From the IMG/VR virus record IMGVR_UViG_3300017990_000045, positions 1 to 32,420 of that record: a stretch of DNA of 32,420 bases; one strand, 5' to 3'. The notes under the pieces were generated by a model. That model was not told the DNA's origin and made no database searches. It saw only the letters and a list, made by a program, of their open reading frames with translations. Made by a program: the position numbers and the translations under genes. Of the stretch, positions 24,336 through 32,419 are shown piece after piece. Position 1 is the first letter of the stretch; every line of letters starts with the position of its first letter. The DNA comes from a virus.

Positions 24336-24561
24336 CGTCTAATCTCCAAATTCTTTTCGTTTCAGCCATGTGATTTCTATTAAATCGCCTTTTATGCTCA
24401 TGCTTACTAATTCTGATACTGCTACATCGTTCTGCACAGTCGGAAAAAAAGAAATAATGTGGACTATTTTTTGATACTCGAAAAGTCCGACCACAACCTC
24501 CGGCACAAATCCTTGTCTCCATCTCAACGTCCTGACCGTAGACAGTCATAGTTTCACTCAT
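24283..24561 (-). CDS. Zinc-ribbon-like small protein, possibly frameshifted at its 3' end
   Basis: The start overlaps the HNH stop as ATGA, so this frame is the true beginning. The N-terminal half has a zinc-ribbon pattern: C19-x3-C23, then C42-x3-C46 (RICAGGCGRTF and SDCAERC). As read, the product is 92 residues and overlaps the next gene by 53 bases, unusual here. A second frame, open from 24527, ends at 24339 just before the next start and gives a more protein-like C terminus (VSMSIKGDLIEITWLKRKEFGD). A +1 shift or a one-base error after the second cysteine pair would join them. The true end is therefore uncertain. Confidence 0.55.
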   Translation of the reverse strand: MSETMTVYGQDVEMETRICAGGCGRTFRVSKNSPHYFFFSDCAERCSSIRISKHEHKRRFNRNHMAETKRIWRLDDGKDCWCGWQDFANSRP

Positions 24562-24908
24562 AGTTCGCCAATCTCCAGTTGGTTTACTAAACTGTCCATT
24601 GCTCTGAGCATCAATTTCGGTGCTACATCGGGGTATTTCTCCATGAGATATCTTTCGATGAGATGAACTGCGAATAAATGGGGTCTGAGAATGCCACAGT
24701 CGCCCCAGAATCGACGTTCTCCGATGTGATGTAACTTTGCATGTAATTCTGCCCGAAGCGGCACAGACCAGTAGTCTGACGGTTTCTGACCAAACCCTCG
24801 ATTAGCGTCGATAGTCAGGTGATGTGCGATTACTTCATAGTCGGAACCTGTCACTACACATTTTTGCTGTCTTATCCATTCAAGATATTTCTTGTTCTTT
24901 GCAGGCAA
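24558..24908 (-). CDS. HNH-like nuclease (DUF968/Ref type)
   Basis: The start is a TTG with GTGGAG seven bases upstream, giving 116 residues. An ATG at 24950 would extend the protein by 14 residues but has no ribosome binding site and increases the overlap with the previous gene to 71 bases. The product has KNKKYLEWIRQQKCVVTG, VIAHHLT, then KPSDYWSVPLRAELHAKLHHIGERRFW, matching phage DUF968/Ref-like HNH-type nucleases with a His-rich metal site. HNH nucleases beside the terminase assist DNA packaging cleavage in several phages. Here that role is inferred from position. Confidence 0.75.
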   Translation of the reverse strand: MPAKNKKYLEWIRQQKCVVTGSDYEVIAHHLTIDANRGFGQKPSDYWSVPLRAELHAKLHHIGERRFWGDCGILRPHLFAVHLIERYLMEKYPDVAPKLMLRAMDSLVNQLEIGEL

Positions 24909-25086
24909 TGTATTTCTCCACTTTTTGTTTGTACCTATTCCTGAAGTCATTCATATTCTTGTGGAAGTCTTTATCGTTCTGTATTCGCTCAGTAAATTTC
25001 TCTTCTCCGCAGTGCCACTTGATTATGAACATATTTCTTTTATGCAGGTAATCGGTCGAGTCTATAGCGTATTCTTCACTTTTCAT
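24880..25086 (-). CDS. Small hypothetical protein, 68 residues
   Basis: The ATG overlaps the end of the small terminase gene by 11 bases, and the frame fills a stretch that would otherwise be empty. The product has FIIKWHCGEEKFTERIQ and a helical, charged C-terminal half (FRNRYKQKVEKYIACKEQEIS). Its end overlaps the start of the HNH gene by 29 bases if that gene uses TTG. It has a weak ribosome binding site and no family is recognised. It could be a true small gene or a chance frame. Confidence 0.5.
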   Translation of the reverse strand: MKSEEYAIDSTDYLHKRNMFIIKWHCGEEKFTERIQNDKDFHKNMNDFRNRYKQKVEKYIACKEQEIS

Positions 25087-25798: not shown

Positions 25799-25990
25799 CT
25801 ATGCCTCCCTTACAAATCTCCAAAGTTGCCACTCAGAAGTGAGAGCAACAGCACAGCCATTCATCTCGCCTTCAAAAAGTGCATTAGGCCAATAGTAATT
25901 TGTTATAACTACCTTCTGCTTTGAGTGCGGGTGTTCTACAATGAAAGGCATCTTAGCGCCTGCTTTCCAAATCTCCATTAGTGTAGCCAT
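25799..25990 (-). CDS. Small hypothetical protein, 63 residues
   Basis: This gene starts at an ATG overlapping the ParB-like stop as TAATG and ends directly before the terminase small subunit. The product has a compact look (MATLMEIWKAGAKMPFIVEH, VVITNYYWPNALFEGEMN, ALTSEWQLWRFVREA) with several aromatic residues, suggesting a small folded domain. No known family is recognised. Coupling to both neighbours makes it a real gene. Confidence 0.65.
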   Translation of the reverse strand: MATLMEIWKAGAKMPFIVEHPHSKQKVVITNYYWPNALFEGEMNGCAVALTSEWQLWRFVREA

Positions 25991-26697
25991 TATGACATTA
26001 ACTCCCGATCTGGAGTCTGATCTATGAAAGCGGTTATCAACTCGATAGCAGGAACAGGACTAACATCGTCTAAATCTCCTGCATCTGGGTTTAGGATTCT
26101 TTTTACACGATCTACCTGAGCTTCCCAAAGTTCACACACAGCTATAGGTAGTCTAACCGTGAATGTTTGCCAGTCGTCATCTTCATCTGAGTTTTTGGAA
26201 GACTCTTCCTCGTCTTCATCTTGCACTTTGTCGAGTTTATCCCAGTCAAAATGAAGCATCTTCGTGTAGTTATCTATGTCGTCTGAGGACATTGGCAAGG
26301 TTGACACAAGGTCGTCTATATCAAATTTCTTAGCAATGTTAGTTATCAACTCTGCTAATTTGATAGGGTCACTGTCGAACTTTGTTTCGTTAGTTTCGAC
26401 AGCGATGCGTTTAGCATCCTCTAAAGATATTTTGCCGAGCATGAAACAAACAGCGTTCTTTTTCTTCAGTGCTTTGAGGGCTATCAGCCTATGATTTCCA
26501 TTTACTACTTCGTAGGTGTTTTTCTTCCTACTCTCTCGAACTATGAGGTTTTCAATCTGGCCGTTTTTAGAGAGGTTCTTCTTTAACTTCTCCATCAACT
26601 TCTCAGATTCTTCGTCGTCAGTCTTTTTGTAGTTCCATTTGGCAGGGATTAGTTTGTCGATTGACACAAGTTTATACTTGTCCAGTACAGATGGCAT
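25990..26697 (-). CDS. ParB-like (ParB/Srx fold) protein
   Basis: The product is 235 residues long. It starts with SIDKLIPAKWNYK, then LSKNGQIENLIVRES and the ParB core VVNGNHRLIALKALKKKNAV. The helical middle carries EDAKRIAVETNETKFDSDPIKLAELI. A very acidic linker (about residues 158 to 176) leads to a C-terminal helical region. ParB-fold proteins near terminase genes in phages can bind or cleave DNA, and recent work on the fold has shown CTP binding in true ParB. None of these activities is proven here. A hairpin-rich leader lies just upstream. Confidence 0.75.
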   Translation of the reverse strand: MPSVLDKYKLVSIDKLIPAKWNYKKTDDEESEKLMEKLKKNLSKNGQIENLIVRESRKKNTYEVVNGNHRLIALKALKKKNAVCFMLGKISLEDAKRIAVETNETKFDSDPIKLAELITNIAKKFDIDDLVSTLPMSSDDIDNYTKMLHFDWDKLDKVQDEDEEESSKNSDEDDDWQTFTVRLPIAVCELWEAQVDRVKRILNPDAGDLDDVSPVPAIELITAFIDQTPDRELMS

Positions 26698-27172: not shown

Positions 27173-28045
27173 TCAGTCTTGCCACTTTACACCACGAGCC
27201 TCCCACATGGAAGTGAGTATGCGCTCAAATTCTCTAAACTTTTCAGCCGAGTGACTGAGTTTCGCTGTAGATGCTTCAGGCCCTTTTTGAATTGAGAAAA
27301 TATCTACAGGAATATCATTGTCTAGGTAATTTTCTTTGGAAGGGCCTTTTTGAACAATGGAGCCAAAGCGATTAAGGGCGAAGAATGTTCCGTACCTAAC
27401 CGGAGATGTCCACGTAGTTGAGTCAATCGAGTAGAATGGGTACTCGTTAGCCACAGACGGGTTAGTTAATGCGAAGCCATGAACCTTAACCTGTTTCTCG
27501 TAAGCGGTTTTCAAGCACTTCATGTAAGGCACACACATCTTCCCGTGCCTCAACCCTTCAAGTCCAACATACTTAGATTGCGAGTCTTTCAACATATCTA
27601 GGTAGTCTTTCCACTCGTCGCAGCGGTGATAGACGGTTATGCACTTCTCGTACAGACCTTCTTTTTTCATTCGTTTTCGCCACTGTTTGACTTTATCGAG
27701 TCCGACTATCGCCTGAATGTCTAACTCTACAAAGTATGAAAACTTTTCCCAGTGTTCTTTTAGCCACTTAAAGTATCTTTCCACATACTCATCAGGATCA
27801 GGCATTTTGCTTTTGTCTGCGTTTTGCTGATGTGTGGCCGACGAGATTCCTGCGTAGCCGAAGAAGGAGTGAGCTCCCGAATCTATAGTTATCAAACCTT
27901 CGTGTTTGCGCTCGGCCAACTCATTTAGTAACGAGGTGGTATTCTTTTGGTAGAAGAATGTTCCAAAGACATTATCCGTAGTTTTGATCTTCACGTCTTT
28001 GTAGGAGTTTAAGATGGACTCCATGCCAGCGAGGTATACTTTCAT
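27173..28045 (-). CDS. dpdA: DpdA-like DNA 7-deazaguanine transglycosylase
   Basis: I start at the ATG at 28045, which overlaps the glycosyltransferase stop as ATGA, giving 290 residues. The product resembles the tRNA-guanine transglycosylase superfamily, phage DpdA branch. It has ITIDSGAHSF with DSGA at 55 to 58, FVELDI at 105 to 110, GLEGLRHG near 161, KVHGFALT at 187 to 194 and YSIDSTTW at 205 to 212. The conserved aspartates in DSGA, ELD and DST are good candidates for base recognition and the nucleophile. DpdA enzymes swap guanine in DNA for a 7-deazaguanine made by FolE, QueD and QueE, all encoded upstream here. The tRNA role of bacterial Tgt is less likely given this context. Confidence 0.8.
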   Translation of the reverse strand: MKVYLAGMESILNSYKDVKIKTTDNVFGTFFYQKNTTSLLNELAERKHEGLITIDSGAHSFFGYAGISSATHQQNADKSKMPDPDEYVERYFKWLKEHWEKFSYFVELDIQAIVGLDKVKQWRKRMKKEGLYEKCITVYHRCDEWKDYLDMLKDSQSKYVGLEGLRHGKMCVPYMKCLKTAYEKQVKVHGFALTNPSVANEYPFYSIDSTTWTSPVRYGTFFALNRFGSIVQKGPSKENYLDNDIPVDIFSIQKGPEASTAKLSHSAEKFREFERILTSMWEARGVKWQD

Positions 28046-29019
28046 ATCTGTTCTATCCAATCTATTGTTTCTGAAAAGCCGAAATCCATCACTTTTTCAT
28101 CGTAGTTATCTAATCCTTGGTAGATCATGTCAGCAGCTTCTTCTAATGTGTCGTACCTGTACTCCTTTGGGTATAAATCCGAGTAGGACAAACGGTTAGG
28201 TACTACTGGGACACACCCACGAGCGGCACCCTCAGCCATTGCTATGCCAAAGGTCTCCTGACGGGCGGTAGATACTACTATTTTTGCCTTTGAAAGTAGG
28301 CCATAATACTCAGGTTTAGTAGCACACTCCTCGACCGTTTTAAGCCATTGAGTTTCGGGGTATTTTTCGGGGTATTTTTTCGAGAATATTCTTTCGATAG
28401 TAGCAAACTCCTCCGGCGCCTTCTCGGGAGCAATCCTATGTGGAAATACTACTAAATCCTTCTTTCGTGGAGGTGTTTCCCACTTTGGACAGGAGACAGG
28501 CCAGTTCACGATCCTAAACTTATGGTGATAATCTGTTCCGAGGTGTTCTTGGATAAGATCAACGTGGAATTGAGTTGCGACAAAAACTTCGTCGGCTGCT
28601 GCAAGCAGTGATCGTTCAAAGCCTTTAGCCCATTTGCCCATTCCTACTCTCGATATAAAGTCGTGCTCATCCCAAGTTCCTGCATGGAGGCATCCTTTGA
28701 TCTTGAAATCCAGACCCATACCATCTCTCATGTAAGCAATAGCAGATACGACAGGATTCCACAGGTCGGCAAAGAAAACGGTCTTCGGAGAAGTTTTCTC
28801 TAATGCTTTAACAAGGTGAGCTCCTTGGGCGAGCTTAAAGAAGTTTGTCTCTGAAACGTCCAAAAACTCACCGCATCGAATCTCATGCTTCTTCGTATCT
28901 CCTACGGTAAAGTAGGATTTTCCGTGCTTTTTGAACCCTTCTTCAAACCATCCCCACCACTGAGAGGAGTAGCGTGCTTCTATTTTTTCGATGGGGCAGA
29001 AGAATATGTCAACCTGCAT
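28042..29019 (-). CDS. GT4-like glycosyltransferase
   Basis: The product is 325 residues long with a GT-B layout. The N-terminal half includes VFFADLWNPVVSAIAY and GCLHAGTWDEHDF (near 109 to 121), then a helix with ADEVFVATQFH. The C-terminal half has FPHRIAPEK at 192 to 200, matching the R and K donor-phosphate residues of GT4, and ETFGIAMAE at 255 to 263, the EX7E motif. The gene starts behind GGAG, overlaps the radical SAM gene by 11 bases and the dpdA gene by 4. This places it inside the modification operon. Glycosylation of the 7-deazaguanine is a plausible role, but the acceptor is not shown by the sequence. Confidence 0.8.
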   Translation of the reverse strand: MQVDIFFCPIEKIEARYSSQWWGWFEEGFKKHGKSYFTVGDTKKHEIRCGEFLDVSETNFFKLAQGAHLVKALEKTSPKTVFFADLWNPVVSAIAYMRDGMGLDFKIKGCLHAGTWDEHDFISRVGMGKWAKGFERSLLAAADEVFVATQFHVDLIQEHLGTDYHHKFRIVNWPVSCPKWETPPRKKDLVVFPHRIAPEKAPEEFATIERIFSKKYPEKYPETQWLKTVEECATKPEYYGLLSKAKIVVSTARQETFGIAMAEGAARGCVPVVPNRLSYSDLYPKEYRYDTLEEAADMIYQGLDNYDEKVMDFGFSETIDWIEQI

Positions 29020-29725
29020 CCTGAGACTCCTTCCATTTTAGTAGTTTTTGGTGGATTTCGTGAGGATTAGTCACGCCACAGTAGCGGCAGATATATGGGT
29101 GTTTTTCTTTGACCGATAACTGGTGAAGGAAGTCGGCTCTCTTTTTGGAGTTCCATATTTCTTCCATTGTTTGGTCATACAAGTTTCCGAAGACGTGCTG
29201 TTTCCCGAAACACTTACAACAAGGAACGACATCTCCATCCCAGTGGATTGAGACATACTCGAAAGGAGTACGGCACTTAAACACTTTTTCTGAGAAGCAT
29301 GGTTTTTTGTGAGTAGTATCTTCGTAAGGGTGATCTTCGCCGAGGTGTTGGGTGAAAACTTGAGTAGGATATTCCTTTGCCAGTGTTTTCGACCGGAAAG
29401 AGTCCACGGTATTTGTAATAATATCTACGTTTGAAAGGTCACGTTCTTTTGTGGCATTAGTAGACAGCCCTACTTTTATCCCTAATTTTTTGACGTGTTC
29501 TACTATTTGAGTAAGCTCAGTGTGAAGGGTAGGTTCCCCAGCCATCTGCAACTCGGTGTACTCTGTATCTCCCCAATCTATCCGATCAAGTAAATCCATC
29601 TTCATAAAGCCGTGCTCTCGGTGCGCCCACTGTTCTGTACGAGCGCAAAAAGGACACTTCATGTTGCAGATACTTGTGACCTCTACTTGGTAAACTTTCC
29701 ATTTCTTCAAAAGTATCAACCTCAC
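29009..29725 (-). CDS. Radical SAM protein with SPASM-like C-terminal cysteines
   Basis: The product has 238 residues from GTG. An internal TTG at residue 6 with a GAGG ribosome binding site is an equally good start. C20-x3-C24-x2-C27 (CNMKCPFC) is the radical SAM cluster motif, and GEPT at 63 to 66 is the usual second motif. Further cysteines at about 143, 151, 169, 170, 172, 213 and 216 (VPCCKC and CRYC) resemble a SPASM or twitch domain that holds extra Fe-S clusters. It sits between the kinase and glycosyltransferase genes. Radical SAM/SPASM proteins modify peptides, sugars or nucleotides. The substrate here is unknown. Confidence 0.8.
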   Translation of the reverse strand: MRLILLKKWKVYQVEVTSICNMKCPFCARTEQWAHREHGFMKMDLLDRIDWGDTEYTELQMAGEPTLHTELTQIVEHVKKLGIKVGLSTNATKERDLSNVDIITNTVDSFRSKTLAKEYPTQVFTQHLGEDHPYEDTTHKKPCFSEKVFKCRTPFEYVSIHWDGDVVPCCKCFGKQHVFGNLYDQTMEEIWNSKKRADFLHQLSVKEKHPYICRYCGVTNPHEIHQKLLKWKESQDAG

Positions 29726-29766
29726 TTTCAGACACTAAAAGTCACACTGTAACTTCTTGTAACTTC
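29726..29766 (-). repeat. Tandem 10-base repeat at the gap after the kinase gene
   Basis: Two adjacent copies of TGTAACTTCT (plus strand) lie at 29748-29757 and 29758-29767. They fill about half of a 41-base gap between the kinase and radical SAM genes. No palindrome or -10 element is clear in it. It could be an operator or a replication slip remnant. Confidence 0.4.
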
Positions 29767-30348
29767 TCAAAACATTGTTCCTATCATTGACGAGACCTTA
29801 TCCACTCTTGCTACAACTTCTCGGTCTTTGATAAGGTAAAGGTCAGTCATGCCACTACTTTTCAAAGTCTTATAGAGATCATTATAAAGTGAATCCATCT
29901 GATCTCTCAGATCGACCGATTTAGGACGAAAGCCATCGTTTACATAATCTATGCCTTCGGTAGACATGAAGAAAATAATGTCATAAGATTTCTTCCAATC
30001 TGCCACCATATCTGCGACGAGTTTATCTGGCTTAACGGACACATTCTTACAAGTCCACAAGTAGTAAAGCCACCAATCTAAAACGGTTCGCTCGGTAACT
30101 AAAAAATCTACATCATCCCTTACCATGTGCTCACACTCAGCGGCCATCTGCTTGTATAAGACATGAAGTCGAGCGTTTGGGTCTGTGTCAAACTTCTCAG
30201 GATTAAAAGGCACTGATCGGCAGAGGTCGTTACAATAGCCGACCCGCTGTTTCTTTAGTTTTAATTTCTTCACTGTTTCAAAGGCACAGGTTGTTTTTCC
30301 TGTACAGCCGTTACCTATGAAAGCAATCTTTTGTATGTTTTTCTTCAT
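29767..30348 (-). CDS. P-loop NTPase/kinase (AAA_28-like)
   Basis: The product has 193 residues. A P-loop (GNGCTGKTT) lies at 12 to 20. Downstream are FLVTERTVLDWWLYYLWTC, with the TER/DW pattern of small nucleoside or cofactor kinases, and YDIIFFMSTEG. The pattern fits AAA_28/NadR-kinase-like proteins common in phages. It lies in the modification operon, overlapping the T-fold gene as ATGA. It may phosphorylate a nucleoside or sugar precursor, or serve NAD or dNTP salvage. The sequence alone does not decide. Confidence 0.75.
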   Translation of the reverse strand: MKKNIQKIAFIGNGCTGKTTCAFETVKKLKLKKQRVGYCNDLCRSVPFNPEKFDTDPNARLHVLYKQMAAECEHMVRDDVDFLVTERTVLDWWLYYLWTCKNVSVKPDKLVADMVADWKKSYDIIFFMSTEGIDYVNDGFRPKSVDLRDQMDSLYNDLYKTLKSSGMTDLYLIKDREVVARVDKVSSMIGTMF

Positions 30349-30662
30349 TTAATTAAAATTGCTCCATTCTCTCCGTCTTCTAAAACGGAGCAAGAGTCAA
30401 GGTCAAATCTATTTATCAAATCTTCAGCAATGTCTTCGCAAGACCATGAACGAAGGTCGTCGTAGTTTTGACTTATGCAAGTTTGAATCTCTCTTTTCAA
30501 AGTTATAAATTCTATATCCCTGTCATTGTGGCTAACCTCTTTTATAGCTTTAACGTGAAAGATATGTCTGTGTGGGTGTTTTAAAAATTCAACGTCACCT
30601 TCAGCACCATGCCACTGGTGTATTCCTTCAAATTGAAGTTTTACGACTATGTATCTTGTCAT
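30345..30662 (-). CDS. Divergent QueD-like (T-fold) protein without the catalytic cysteine
   Basis: This gene encodes 105 residues that align by eye with the QueD of this operon. F11-x3-H15 keeps identical spacing. H31-R-H33 stands for the H-x-H zinc ligands. IEF near 50 to 52 stands for the VDF block. CEDIAEDLI stands for the PTAEN helix. Glu95 stands for the conserved pterin-binding Glu. The cysteine that precedes the H-x-H in true QueD enzymes is replaced by Leu27. Zinc and pterin-like binding may persist, but the QueD reaction is unlikely. It may bind or process a pterin or deazapurine intermediate. Confidence 0.65.
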   Translation of the reverse strand: MTRYIVVKLQFEGIHQWHGAEGDVEFLKHPHRHIFHVKAIKEVSHNDRDIEFITLKREIQTCISQNYDDLRSWSCEDIAEDLINRFDLDSCSVLEDGENGAILIK

Positions 30663-30665
30663 TTC

Positions 30666-31214
30666 TCATCCTTTCACAAGTTTCAAAAACTCTTCTTTTG
30701 TCGATTGCTGTCTAAAAGCCCCTCTAACGGCAGAGGTCACCATAACTGAGTTTTGCTTTCCAACACCCCTCATGGTCATACACAGGTGTTGAGCTTCTAT
30801 GACTACCATGACTCCTTTTGGCTGCAATACTTCTTCAATAGTTGAAGCAACTTGTTCAGTTAACCTCTCTTGTATCTGCATACGTTTGGCATAGCAATCT
30901 AACAACCTGGCCAACTTTGAGATTCCAACTACCCGTTTGTCTGGTATGTATGCAATGTGCGCTTTACCTGAGAACGGGAGGGTGTGATGCTCACACATGG
31001 AGTACATCTCTATATTCTTGAGCAATACCATCTGGTCATAGCCATCACTGTTAAAGGTAGTGCCTAAGATTTTCTTTGGGTCTTGCTTATATCCCGAATA
31101 GATTTCTTTCCACGAGTTTACAATCCTTTTTGGCGTATCTAGCAAACCCTCTCGTTCAGCATTTTCGCCTATATATGATAAGGTATCTTTTACCTTGTCT
31201 AAAATATCAGTCAT
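30666..31214 (-). CDS. folE: GTP cyclohydrolase I
   Basis: I start at the ATG at 31214, which overlaps the QueE stop as ATGA. An ATG 15 bases upstream is possible. The 182-residue product matches GTP cyclohydrolase [19 protein letters not shown], the [19 protein letters not shown] block with zinc ligands C74 and H77, [25 protein letters not shown], and the second cysteine in [12 protein letters not shown] (C145). It converts GTP to dihydroneopterin triphosphate, the first step toward 7-deazaguanines. A bacterial host normally has its own FolE, so this copy probably boosts supply. Confidence 0.95.
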
Positions 31215-31810
31215 TTTATTCCCATCCATTTATGAGTTTGCAGGCTAATTCTCCACTTAGGATTTTTTCTTATGTAGATATAAATCTTTTTAAGGTTTTC
31301 ATACATCGCCGAAGATTCTGGTGATAGGTATAAGAAAGCTGTGTCGTCATCTCTATGCCTATCAAGAATTTCAAAGTTGAAGTTATTATCAACAACGTAC
31401 TTAAACTCATTGACGAGTGGGTAAAGTTTTTCGTCTATCTCATAGCAAGATTGTTCCTTTGGTGAGCAGGTAATCCAATCTGGAATTACGCTTGGTGGAG
31501 GCTTAGTTCCGTTAGTCTCCATCGCAACATAGAAACCGAGTGATTGTAGCATATTAATAATTTGAGGTGTCTGGGCATTAATAGTCGGCTCGCCTCCGGT
31601 CAAAACTGCAAAGCGTCCTATCTCTTCGGTGGCAAAAGCCGTGAAGTCTGTCAGTGGAACTTCAATTACCTGATCATACTCGGTGTCACAGAAGTGACAT
31701 TTCAAGTTACACTTAGGTACACGAACAAATAATGCTCTACGCCCTGCATGATATCCTTCACCTTGAAAAGACCAGAACATCTCATTTAACTTTAGAACAG
31801 TTCTATCCAA
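31211..31810 (-). CDS. queE: 7-carboxy-7-deazaguanine synthase
   Basis: The frame extends to 31843, but a TTG at 31810 has GGAGG six bases upstream and overlaps the QueD stop, so I start there (199 residues). The product has [19 protein letters not shown] and the radical SAM motif C34-x3-C38-x2-C41 ([13 protein letters not shown]), typical of QueE, followed by TGGEPT at 71 to 76 and METNGTK. It makes 7-carboxy-7-deazaguanine from 6-carboxytetrahydropterin. The C-terminal half is shorter than in some bacterial QueE proteins. Confidence 0.9.
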
Positions 31811-32231
31811 GCGACACCTCCGCATAGCAATTGGGCGTTTCATACAATCTAACTTTAGTGATCTTTACTCCAGTTCCCACCATTAGTTCAGGTGCTACCG
31901 TTTTCAGGATGTAATAAGCCATGTTTTCTGCTGTAGGATTCCAACGTGAGACCCACAAATCCTTGCGGTGAGGTATGCTTTTTAATGCTTTAATGGTTTC
32001 GATATCATCCTTGTAGATAATGCAGTTATGATCCCATTTCTCGTCAATCCATCCACCTATTTTTTCTTTGATGACTGAGAAATCTACGACTCGTCCGATC
32101 TGGTCAGGAGCACCTTCTGCGGTAAGCTCTGCTACATAGCGATGGCCGTGAAGGGTAGCGCATTTTCCCTCGTGGTTCATAAGGCGATGTGCTGTGTCAA
32201 ACTCTATTTTTCTGGTGCAAGTCATCTTCAT
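31803..32231 (-). CDS. queD: 6-carboxytetrahydropterin synthase
   Basis: The 142-residue product has the full QueD set: F11-x3-H15, the catalytic C24 in GKCATLHGH with zinc ligands H28 and H30, RVVDF near 47 to 51, WDH at 66 to 68, PTAEN at 99 to 103 and the LYET block with Glu131. It converts dihydroneopterin triphosphate to 6-carboxytetrahydropterin, between FolE and QueE. The ATG overlaps the end of the upstream gene as ATGA, behind AGGA. The E at 131 and the intact Cys separate it from the T-fold paralogue. Confidence 0.95.
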   Translation of the reverse strand: MKMTCTRKIEFDTAHRLMNHEGKCATLHGHRYVAELTAEGAPDQIGRVVDFSVIKEKIGGWIDEKWDHNCIIYKDDIETIKALKSIPHRKDLWVSRWNPTAENMAYYILKTVAPELMVGTGVKITKVRLYETPNCYAEVSLG

Positions 32232-32419
32232 CTAGTTTTTCCTTTTTTGGTGTTTTTGCTAACTCTTTTTTGGTATTTCTCAATGCAAGCTTCCCTTATG
32301 TGGAAGCCATAACCTTTGCCGGATTTCTCGCCAAGATCAACCAACAGGTCATATAAACTCAGAGGCAAGCAAAAACCGACCCTTACAGTTGGCTCGCCTT
32401 TCGCAAGGCTTTTTCTGCC
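32228..32419 (-). CDS. C-terminal fragment of a ribbon-helix-helix-like protein, truncated by the window edge
   Basis: A frame open from the right edge ends in TGA overlapping the queD start. The visible 63 residues read as TVRVGFCLPLSLYDLLVDLG followed by GYGFHIREACIEKYQKR and a lysine-rich end. A short strand followed by two helices, with basic residues, resembles the ribbon-helix-helix fold of small transcription regulators. As the first visible gene of the modification operon it could be its regulator. The missing N terminus limits confidence. Confidence 0.55.
   Translation of the reverse strand, partial: GRKSLAKGEPTVRVGFCLPLSLYDLLVDLGEKSGKGYGFHIREACIEKYQKRVSKNTKKGKTR

Follow-up and report, generated by a model that had tools for sequence, protein, structure and literature searches.

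What might a virus that encodes the enzymes for a 7-deazaguanine DNA base do with a glycosyltransferase (GT), a radical SAM enzyme, a kinase and a second QueD-like protein in the same operon? The question is raised by IMGVR_UViG_3300017990_000045, a linear IMG/VR virus record of 32,420 bases that was analyzed as a whole (hereafter the window), and whose virus is known here from metagenomes. A tail sheath, baseplate, tape measure, major head protein, portal and terminase, all encoded in the window on the operon's strand, assign it to the myoviruses. Positions 27173-32231 of the minus strand, on which all genes of the operon lie, hold eight consecutive genes in the order queD-queE-folE-p17812-kinase-radical SAM/SPASM-GT4-dpdA, where p17812, named after phrog_17812, encodes a small QueD-fold (T-fold) protein. 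We consider it likely that the product of this operon is a glycosylated 7-deazaguanine within the DNA of the phage itself: 7-carboxy-7-deazaguanine (CDG) would be processed by p17812, inserted by DpdA and glycosylated by the GT, with the radical SAM protein and the kinase tailoring the product. The eight identities proposed in a preliminary description of this DNA (FolE, QueD, QueE, a T-fold paralogue, a P-loop kinase, a radical SAM/SPASM protein, a GT4 enzyme and a DpdA-like protein) were all borne out by profile matches, motifs and models, and its remark that most of the junctions overlap holds for five of the seven.

The supply of the base can be read from three genes, whose families are established to convert GTP to CDG and would do so here. 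GTP cyclohydrolase I is encoded by folE (30666..31229; PF01227, E 2e-74; TIGR00063 above its cut-off). The 6-carboxytetrahydropterin synthase gene, queD (31803..32231), matches PF01242 (PTPS; E 4e-31) and phrog_2389, with TIGR03367 below cut-off, and its product keeps the zinc histidines and the cysteine (H15, C24, H28, H30). CDG synthase is encoded by queE (31211..31843; phrog_2076, E 5e-31), which carries a CX3CX2C motif at residue 45 and matches TIGR04508 at E 2e-30, below the curated NCBI cut-off. Homologues of FolE, QueD and QueE in one cluster, as seen here, are a feature of Dpd-type systems. The window shares with the phage Dpd systems of 9g, CAjan and Rosebush (FolE-QueD-QueE-QueC-DpdA; PMC6884629) the GTP-to-CDG enzymes, the operon layout and a transglycosylase of DpdA type that retains the Asp residues and the conserved His, but differs in the added p17812, GT4, SPASM radical SAM protein and kinase. 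No queC, QueF or amidotransferase gene was found in the window, where the contig is cut upstream of queD.

The DNA-guanine transglycosylase-like gene, dpdA (27173..28060, with a likely ATG start at 28045), matches phrog_887 (E 2e-29), and its product resembles the DpdA of Mycobacterium phage Bipper (E 2e-7). Bipper has the same set of dpdA, queD, queE and folE and, according to PMC6884629, lacks queC. Residues D60, D114, H194 and D213 are invariant in 30 DpdA sequences, and H194 would correspond to the His196 described in PMC6884629. A canonical tRNA-guanine transglycosylase (TGT) identity was rejected, as the window protein has neither a Pfam TGT match nor the CxCxxC zinc motif. When solved structures were searched with the DpdA profile, bacterial DpdA (7ui4) came up no more than weakly (E 0.075), amid chance matches.

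What the GT adds to this pathway is suggested by its closest relatives. The gene (28042..29019) encodes a GT-B fold GT4 glycosyltransferase with an AlphaFold pLDDT of 91, GT-B/GT4 structure matches and weak Pfam matches. Its EX7E motif lies at 255-263, with E263 invariant and E255 present in at least 90% of the family, and R195 and K200 are also invariant. Profile comparison ties the phage GT specifically to QTMAN, the closest family found, which puts mannose on the queuosine base in tRNA (PMC12518689). Full QTMAN-type proteins from eight loci score 70-77 bits against the phage GT profile and align with it over the catalytic half at an hhalign probability of 98.9 (E 2e-17). Moreover, in six QTMAN-bearing genomes the QTMAN-type proteins reach 63-77 bits while no other GT4 exceeds 19, the best GT4 among six genomes drawn from those lacking QTMAN reaches 23, and so does the best solved GT4 in the Protein Data Bank; a gap of this size, 63-77 bits against at most 23, is what points to a specific relation. 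The likeness to QTMAN (PF12038 plus GT4; PMC12518689) covers the GT4 catalytic half including the PNRLxYxE region, and extends to the class of acceptor, a 7-deazaguanine nucleoside. Outright membership was rejected, since the QTMAN_N domain (PF12038) has no match in the window GT or the other phage GTs scanned, and since these proteins carry an N-terminal signature of their own, PIEPxExRY; they are kept as a related family. The phage pathway also differs from that of QTMAN in lacking the queuosine diol and in its proposed substrate, DNA.

The small protein p17812 (30345..30662; phrog_17812, E 2e-21) is the second constant partner. Its AlphaFold model (pLDDT 93) adopts the QueD fold by Foldseek, with a TM score of about 0.8 (TMq up to 0.81), and all 51 sequences compared keep H15, H31, H33, R48, C75, E76 and E95. 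With the QueD/PTPS family it shares the fold, the zinc histidine triad and the substrate-binding glutamate; it differs in being shorter and in having an invariant S-C-E motif in place of the catalytic cysteine, no conserved Cys being found at positions 18-30 in the 51 sequences. A second working QueD was ruled out on this ground. The conserved fold and invariant residues argue that p17812 probably binds a metal together with a pterin-like or deazaguanine ligand and, judged from the missing cysteine, it cannot perform QueD chemistry in the QueD manner. Cui and colleagues are said to have described, in 2023, a CDG decarboxylase, DpdL, along with a DpdA3 subfamily showing full guanine replacement, and p17812 may be the enzyme so called. 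The deoxynucleosides of CDG (dCDG) and of 7-deazaguanine (dDG) were reportedly found in phages in the same work.

If these proteins act in one pathway, their genes should travel together. With a profile (A1) built from six phage GTs, at least 452 related proteins were recovered from IMG/VR, and 88 GT loci with flanks of up to 8 kb were grouped at 60% identity into 54 clusters. FolE, QueD or QueE is encoded in 50 of the 54, p17812 in 49 and a transglycosylase-like gene in 48, and 41 clusters hold a TGT-like gene, p17812 and FolE all at once; the background figure for FolE is 393 of 50,697 phage records (0.8%). The order queD-queE-folE-p17812-GT-dpdA recurs many times among these loci. A second scan, anchored on p17812 so as not to select on the GT, recovered the GT in 54 of 80 loci; of the 57 loci in which a transglycosylase could be detected, 52 have it. 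Loci lacking the GT mostly bear a different transglycosylase-like gene, of the kind found in phi13:1. In isolated phages, 20 records have the GT, 27 have p17812 and 16 have both, these last including the PA5oct group, ACP17, Phosso, X1 and BUCT-ZZ01. Three DpdA-type families are paired with the same GT: that of the window, the ACP17 type (phrog_10773) and the PA5oct gp168 type. The latter two align mutually (hhalign probability 95), give no significant hhalign alignment to the window type, and owe the label of transglycosylase to their DSGG and (F/Y)D(S/A) motifs and to the annotation in X1. Even the most diverged phage GT, from Xanthomonas phage PhiXhv-15, is again in a 7-deazaguanine setting: a single gene, for a PIG-L deacetylase, separates it from a GATase-QueC fusion (L099:4600-6120, annotated as a glutamine-fructose-6-phosphate aminotransferase), and acetyltransferase-like genes also adjoin. 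Pfam QueC is otherwise absent from PA5oct, Phosso, ACP17, BUCT-ZZ01 and phi13:1, with a sub-threshold match only in X1; a search of the GT loci for a QueC-like motif returned none, only the PAPS-reductase-like SGGKDS. The preliminary description had named the absence of this gene order from any related phage as a ground for refutation; the opposite was found, in that dozens of diverged viral loci, and isolated phages too, combine the GT, p17812, FolE/QueD/QueE and a transglycosylase. The link to DNA modification, which that description drew from synteny in a single sequence, thereby gains comparative support. Its suggestion of a base more complex than plain CDG, 7-cyano-7-deazaguanine (preQ0) or 7-amido-7-deazaguanine (ADG) gains support from this recurring association and from the QTMAN relation, and its alternative of a linked host-modifying step now appears less likely.

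The other two enzymes are present in the window and in a minority of loci. The P-loop kinase (29767..30348), which is thymidylate-kinase-like, matches PF13521 (E 3e-8) and phrog_2107 (E 6e-21) and carries the motif GNGCTGKT; its direct relatives lie near the GT in four loci (L032, L043, L047 and L069), of which L032 reproduces the whole gene set of the window with little change of order, and tblastn gave no match in isolated phages. The radical SAM protein (29009..29725; PF04055 and PF13186, the latter marking its SPASM domain) has BtrN as its best solved relative, in a match limited to residues 144-217, the SPASM part (E 1e-7). About a dozen loci have a direct relative close to the GT, a count restricted to direct matches because iteration pulled the SPASM model towards other radical SAM proteins. 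Both genes are genuine but accessory. Of the set of extra enzymes that had been tied to the pathway, then, the GT and p17812 recur with it, whereas the kinase and the radical SAM protein do so only in this minority.

How the parts might work together can be proposed as follows. CDG from FolE, QueD and QueE would be acted on, itself or as a close relative, by p17812, which would set the group at C7; DpdA would then swap guanine in DNA for the resulting base after replication, and the QTMAN-like GT4 would use a nucleotide sugar to glycosylate that base, with the C7 substituent as the tentatively favoured acceptor. Where they are present, as here and in some related viruses, the radical SAM protein and the kinase may make further changes to the base or the sugar. 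The purpose would be protection from restriction, as simpler 7-deazaguanines in phage DNA have been shown to confer (PMC6884629). Several points weigh against this scheme. CDG and 7-deazaguanine offer no obvious hydroxyl acceptor, and the queuosine cyclopentenediol that QTMAN uses is made by no gene here; the handles conceivable at C7 are the carboxylate on CDG, nothing on plain 7-deazaguanine, and an amidine or nitrile in PhiXhv-15. Were p17812 a CDG decarboxylase, its product would have no C7 handle at all. The GT lacks QTMAN_N, and its fold matches include a GT4 that glucosylates tetrahydrobiopterin, so that its acceptor could be a free base or pterin. The loci behind the association are not fully independent, and the family models were iterated inside the fetched loci. 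Finally, the contig end cuts the operon, and in this virus queC may lie upstream.

It is with these points in mind that other explanations have to be weighed. The phage DNA might hold plain 7-deazaguanine, as dCDG or, with p17812 as decarboxylase, as dDG, leaving the GT to act on another pathway product such as a free pterin or base; the tetrahydrobiopterin enzyme is in keeping with this, as are the dCDG and dDG reported from phages, and phi13:1, Roos and other phages that have p17812 without this GT. On the other hand, the family closest to the GT modifies a 7-deazaguanine nucleoside within a polynucleotide, and the GT accompanies the transglycosylase across three DpdA-type families, and we regard plain 7-deazaguanine as unlikely. 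Phage GTs often alter host surface sugars, and the GT, kinase and radical SAM protein might instead be separate host- or surface-modifying cargo that sits in the operon by chance, an idea that suits two genes that are not universal. It would leave the association of the GT with p17812 and FolE in 45-50 of 54 diverged clusters to accident, and a GT related to a nucleic-acid GT is not what it would lead one to expect; it strikes us as quite improbable.

That the pathway modifies tRNA instead of DNA is an alternative to which we give very little credence. QTMAN and TGT are indeed tRNA enzymes, and FolE, QueD and QueE also supply queuosine. Yet the transglycosylase, without Pfam TGT match or CxCxxC, groups with the phage DpdA-like phrog_887 and resembles the Bipper enzyme, and the window contains no tRNA gene and no queuosine-specific enzyme that we could see. 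A glycosylated 7-deazaguanine in DNA thus stays our preferred explanation for this operon. Extended to other viruses, the proposal that many phages replace guanine with such a base, using a GT that shares ancestry with QTMAN, and that in some, this virus included, a radical SAM enzyme remodels the sugar or base, seems to us about as apt to hold as to fail.

Phage 7-deazaguanine DNA modification is a known kind of system, and the strength of the present finding lies in the association with the GT and its relation to QTMAN. Sugar-decorated phage DNA bases are known on pyrimidines; we know of no report of a glycosylated-7-deazaguanine class of hypermodified guanine, and a sugar on a guanine analogue, if confirmed, would be new to our knowledge. 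A literature search found no report of glycosylated 7-deazaguanine in DNA, although it covered few subscription papers and is therefore no proof of novelty. The scheme resembles T4-type glucosylated hydroxymethylcytosine in its logic, a phage GT glycosylating a modified DNA base, but here a purine-like guanine analogue would enter by base exchange, not by polymerase, and there is no sign that the window GT belongs to the T4 GT families. In carboxymethylcytosine hypermodification (CmoX/CmoY; PMC12783734) a DNA-base carboxyl serves as a handle and phages reuse RNA-modification enzymes; that system differs in employing an amide ligase on cytosine and no GT. If true, our proposal would explain a conserved pair of unknown function (phrog_17812 and this GT4) in jumbo and other phages, tie the glycosylation of 7-deazaguanines in DNA to that in tRNA through common ancestry, and allow predictions of the restriction and CRISPR defences that such phages evade. 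It is directly testable on cultured phages.

The junctions of the operon are tight. queD and queE overlap by 41 nucleotides, queE and folE by 19, p17812 and the kinase gene by 4, and the radical SAM and GT genes by 11; folE and p17812 are 3 nucleotides apart, and the kinase and radical SAM genes 41. The GT gene and dpdA overlap by 4 nucleotides from the ATG at 28045, or by 19 from a TTG at 28060. A partial open reading frame on the minus strand (32228..32419), open at the window end, overlaps queD by 4 nucleotides, so the operon probably continues past the contig end. A second IMG/VR contig, from another metagenome record, is 99.99% identical (one mismatch in 12,199 bases), and the gene order is therefore no accident of one contig.

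Further genes recur around the module in other viruses. In 21 loci a nucleotide-sugar epimerase gene follows the GT at a distance of about 1 kb, and seven loci encode a fusion of a cytidylyltransferase with a mannose-6-phosphate-isomerase-like domain; sugar-nucleotide genes of this kind speak for the proposed scheme. Phosphoribosyltransferases and IMP dehydrogenase/GMP reductase also recur, and would fit salvage of the guanine freed by base exchange; in one group of loci (L075-L097) both accompany a peroxiredoxin-like gene. Small PAPS-reductase-like proteins with SGGKDS lie near the GT module in six loci (L005, L067, L068, L072, L074, L095) and may provide a tailoring step. Synechococcus phage BUCT-ZZ01 has a second GT4 on the far side of its DpdA-type gene (L006:5001-6341), where two sugars may be added. 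Loci that have p17812 but not this GT often encode a weakly GT-A-like phrog_1574 protein, perhaps a replacement GT, as at L152:4433-5452 and in nine other p17812 loci.

Among bacteria, a profile search of genomes with A8 matched only four contigs of metagenome-assembled genomes. QTMAN-family genes (L192-L201 among them) are common in one phylum, that of the Bacteroidetes metagenome-assembled genome L109: PF12038 occurs in 100 of 396 genomes, two copies being present in some, a sign that bacteria may glycosylate queuosine or some other acceptor. In the window itself a DUF968 protein is encoded at 24558-24950, upstream of the large terminase gene, and a ParB-like protein at 25990-26697; others of this type are encoded close to dpdA in phages that differ in other respects (L098:202-861; L009; L114, L115 and L124).

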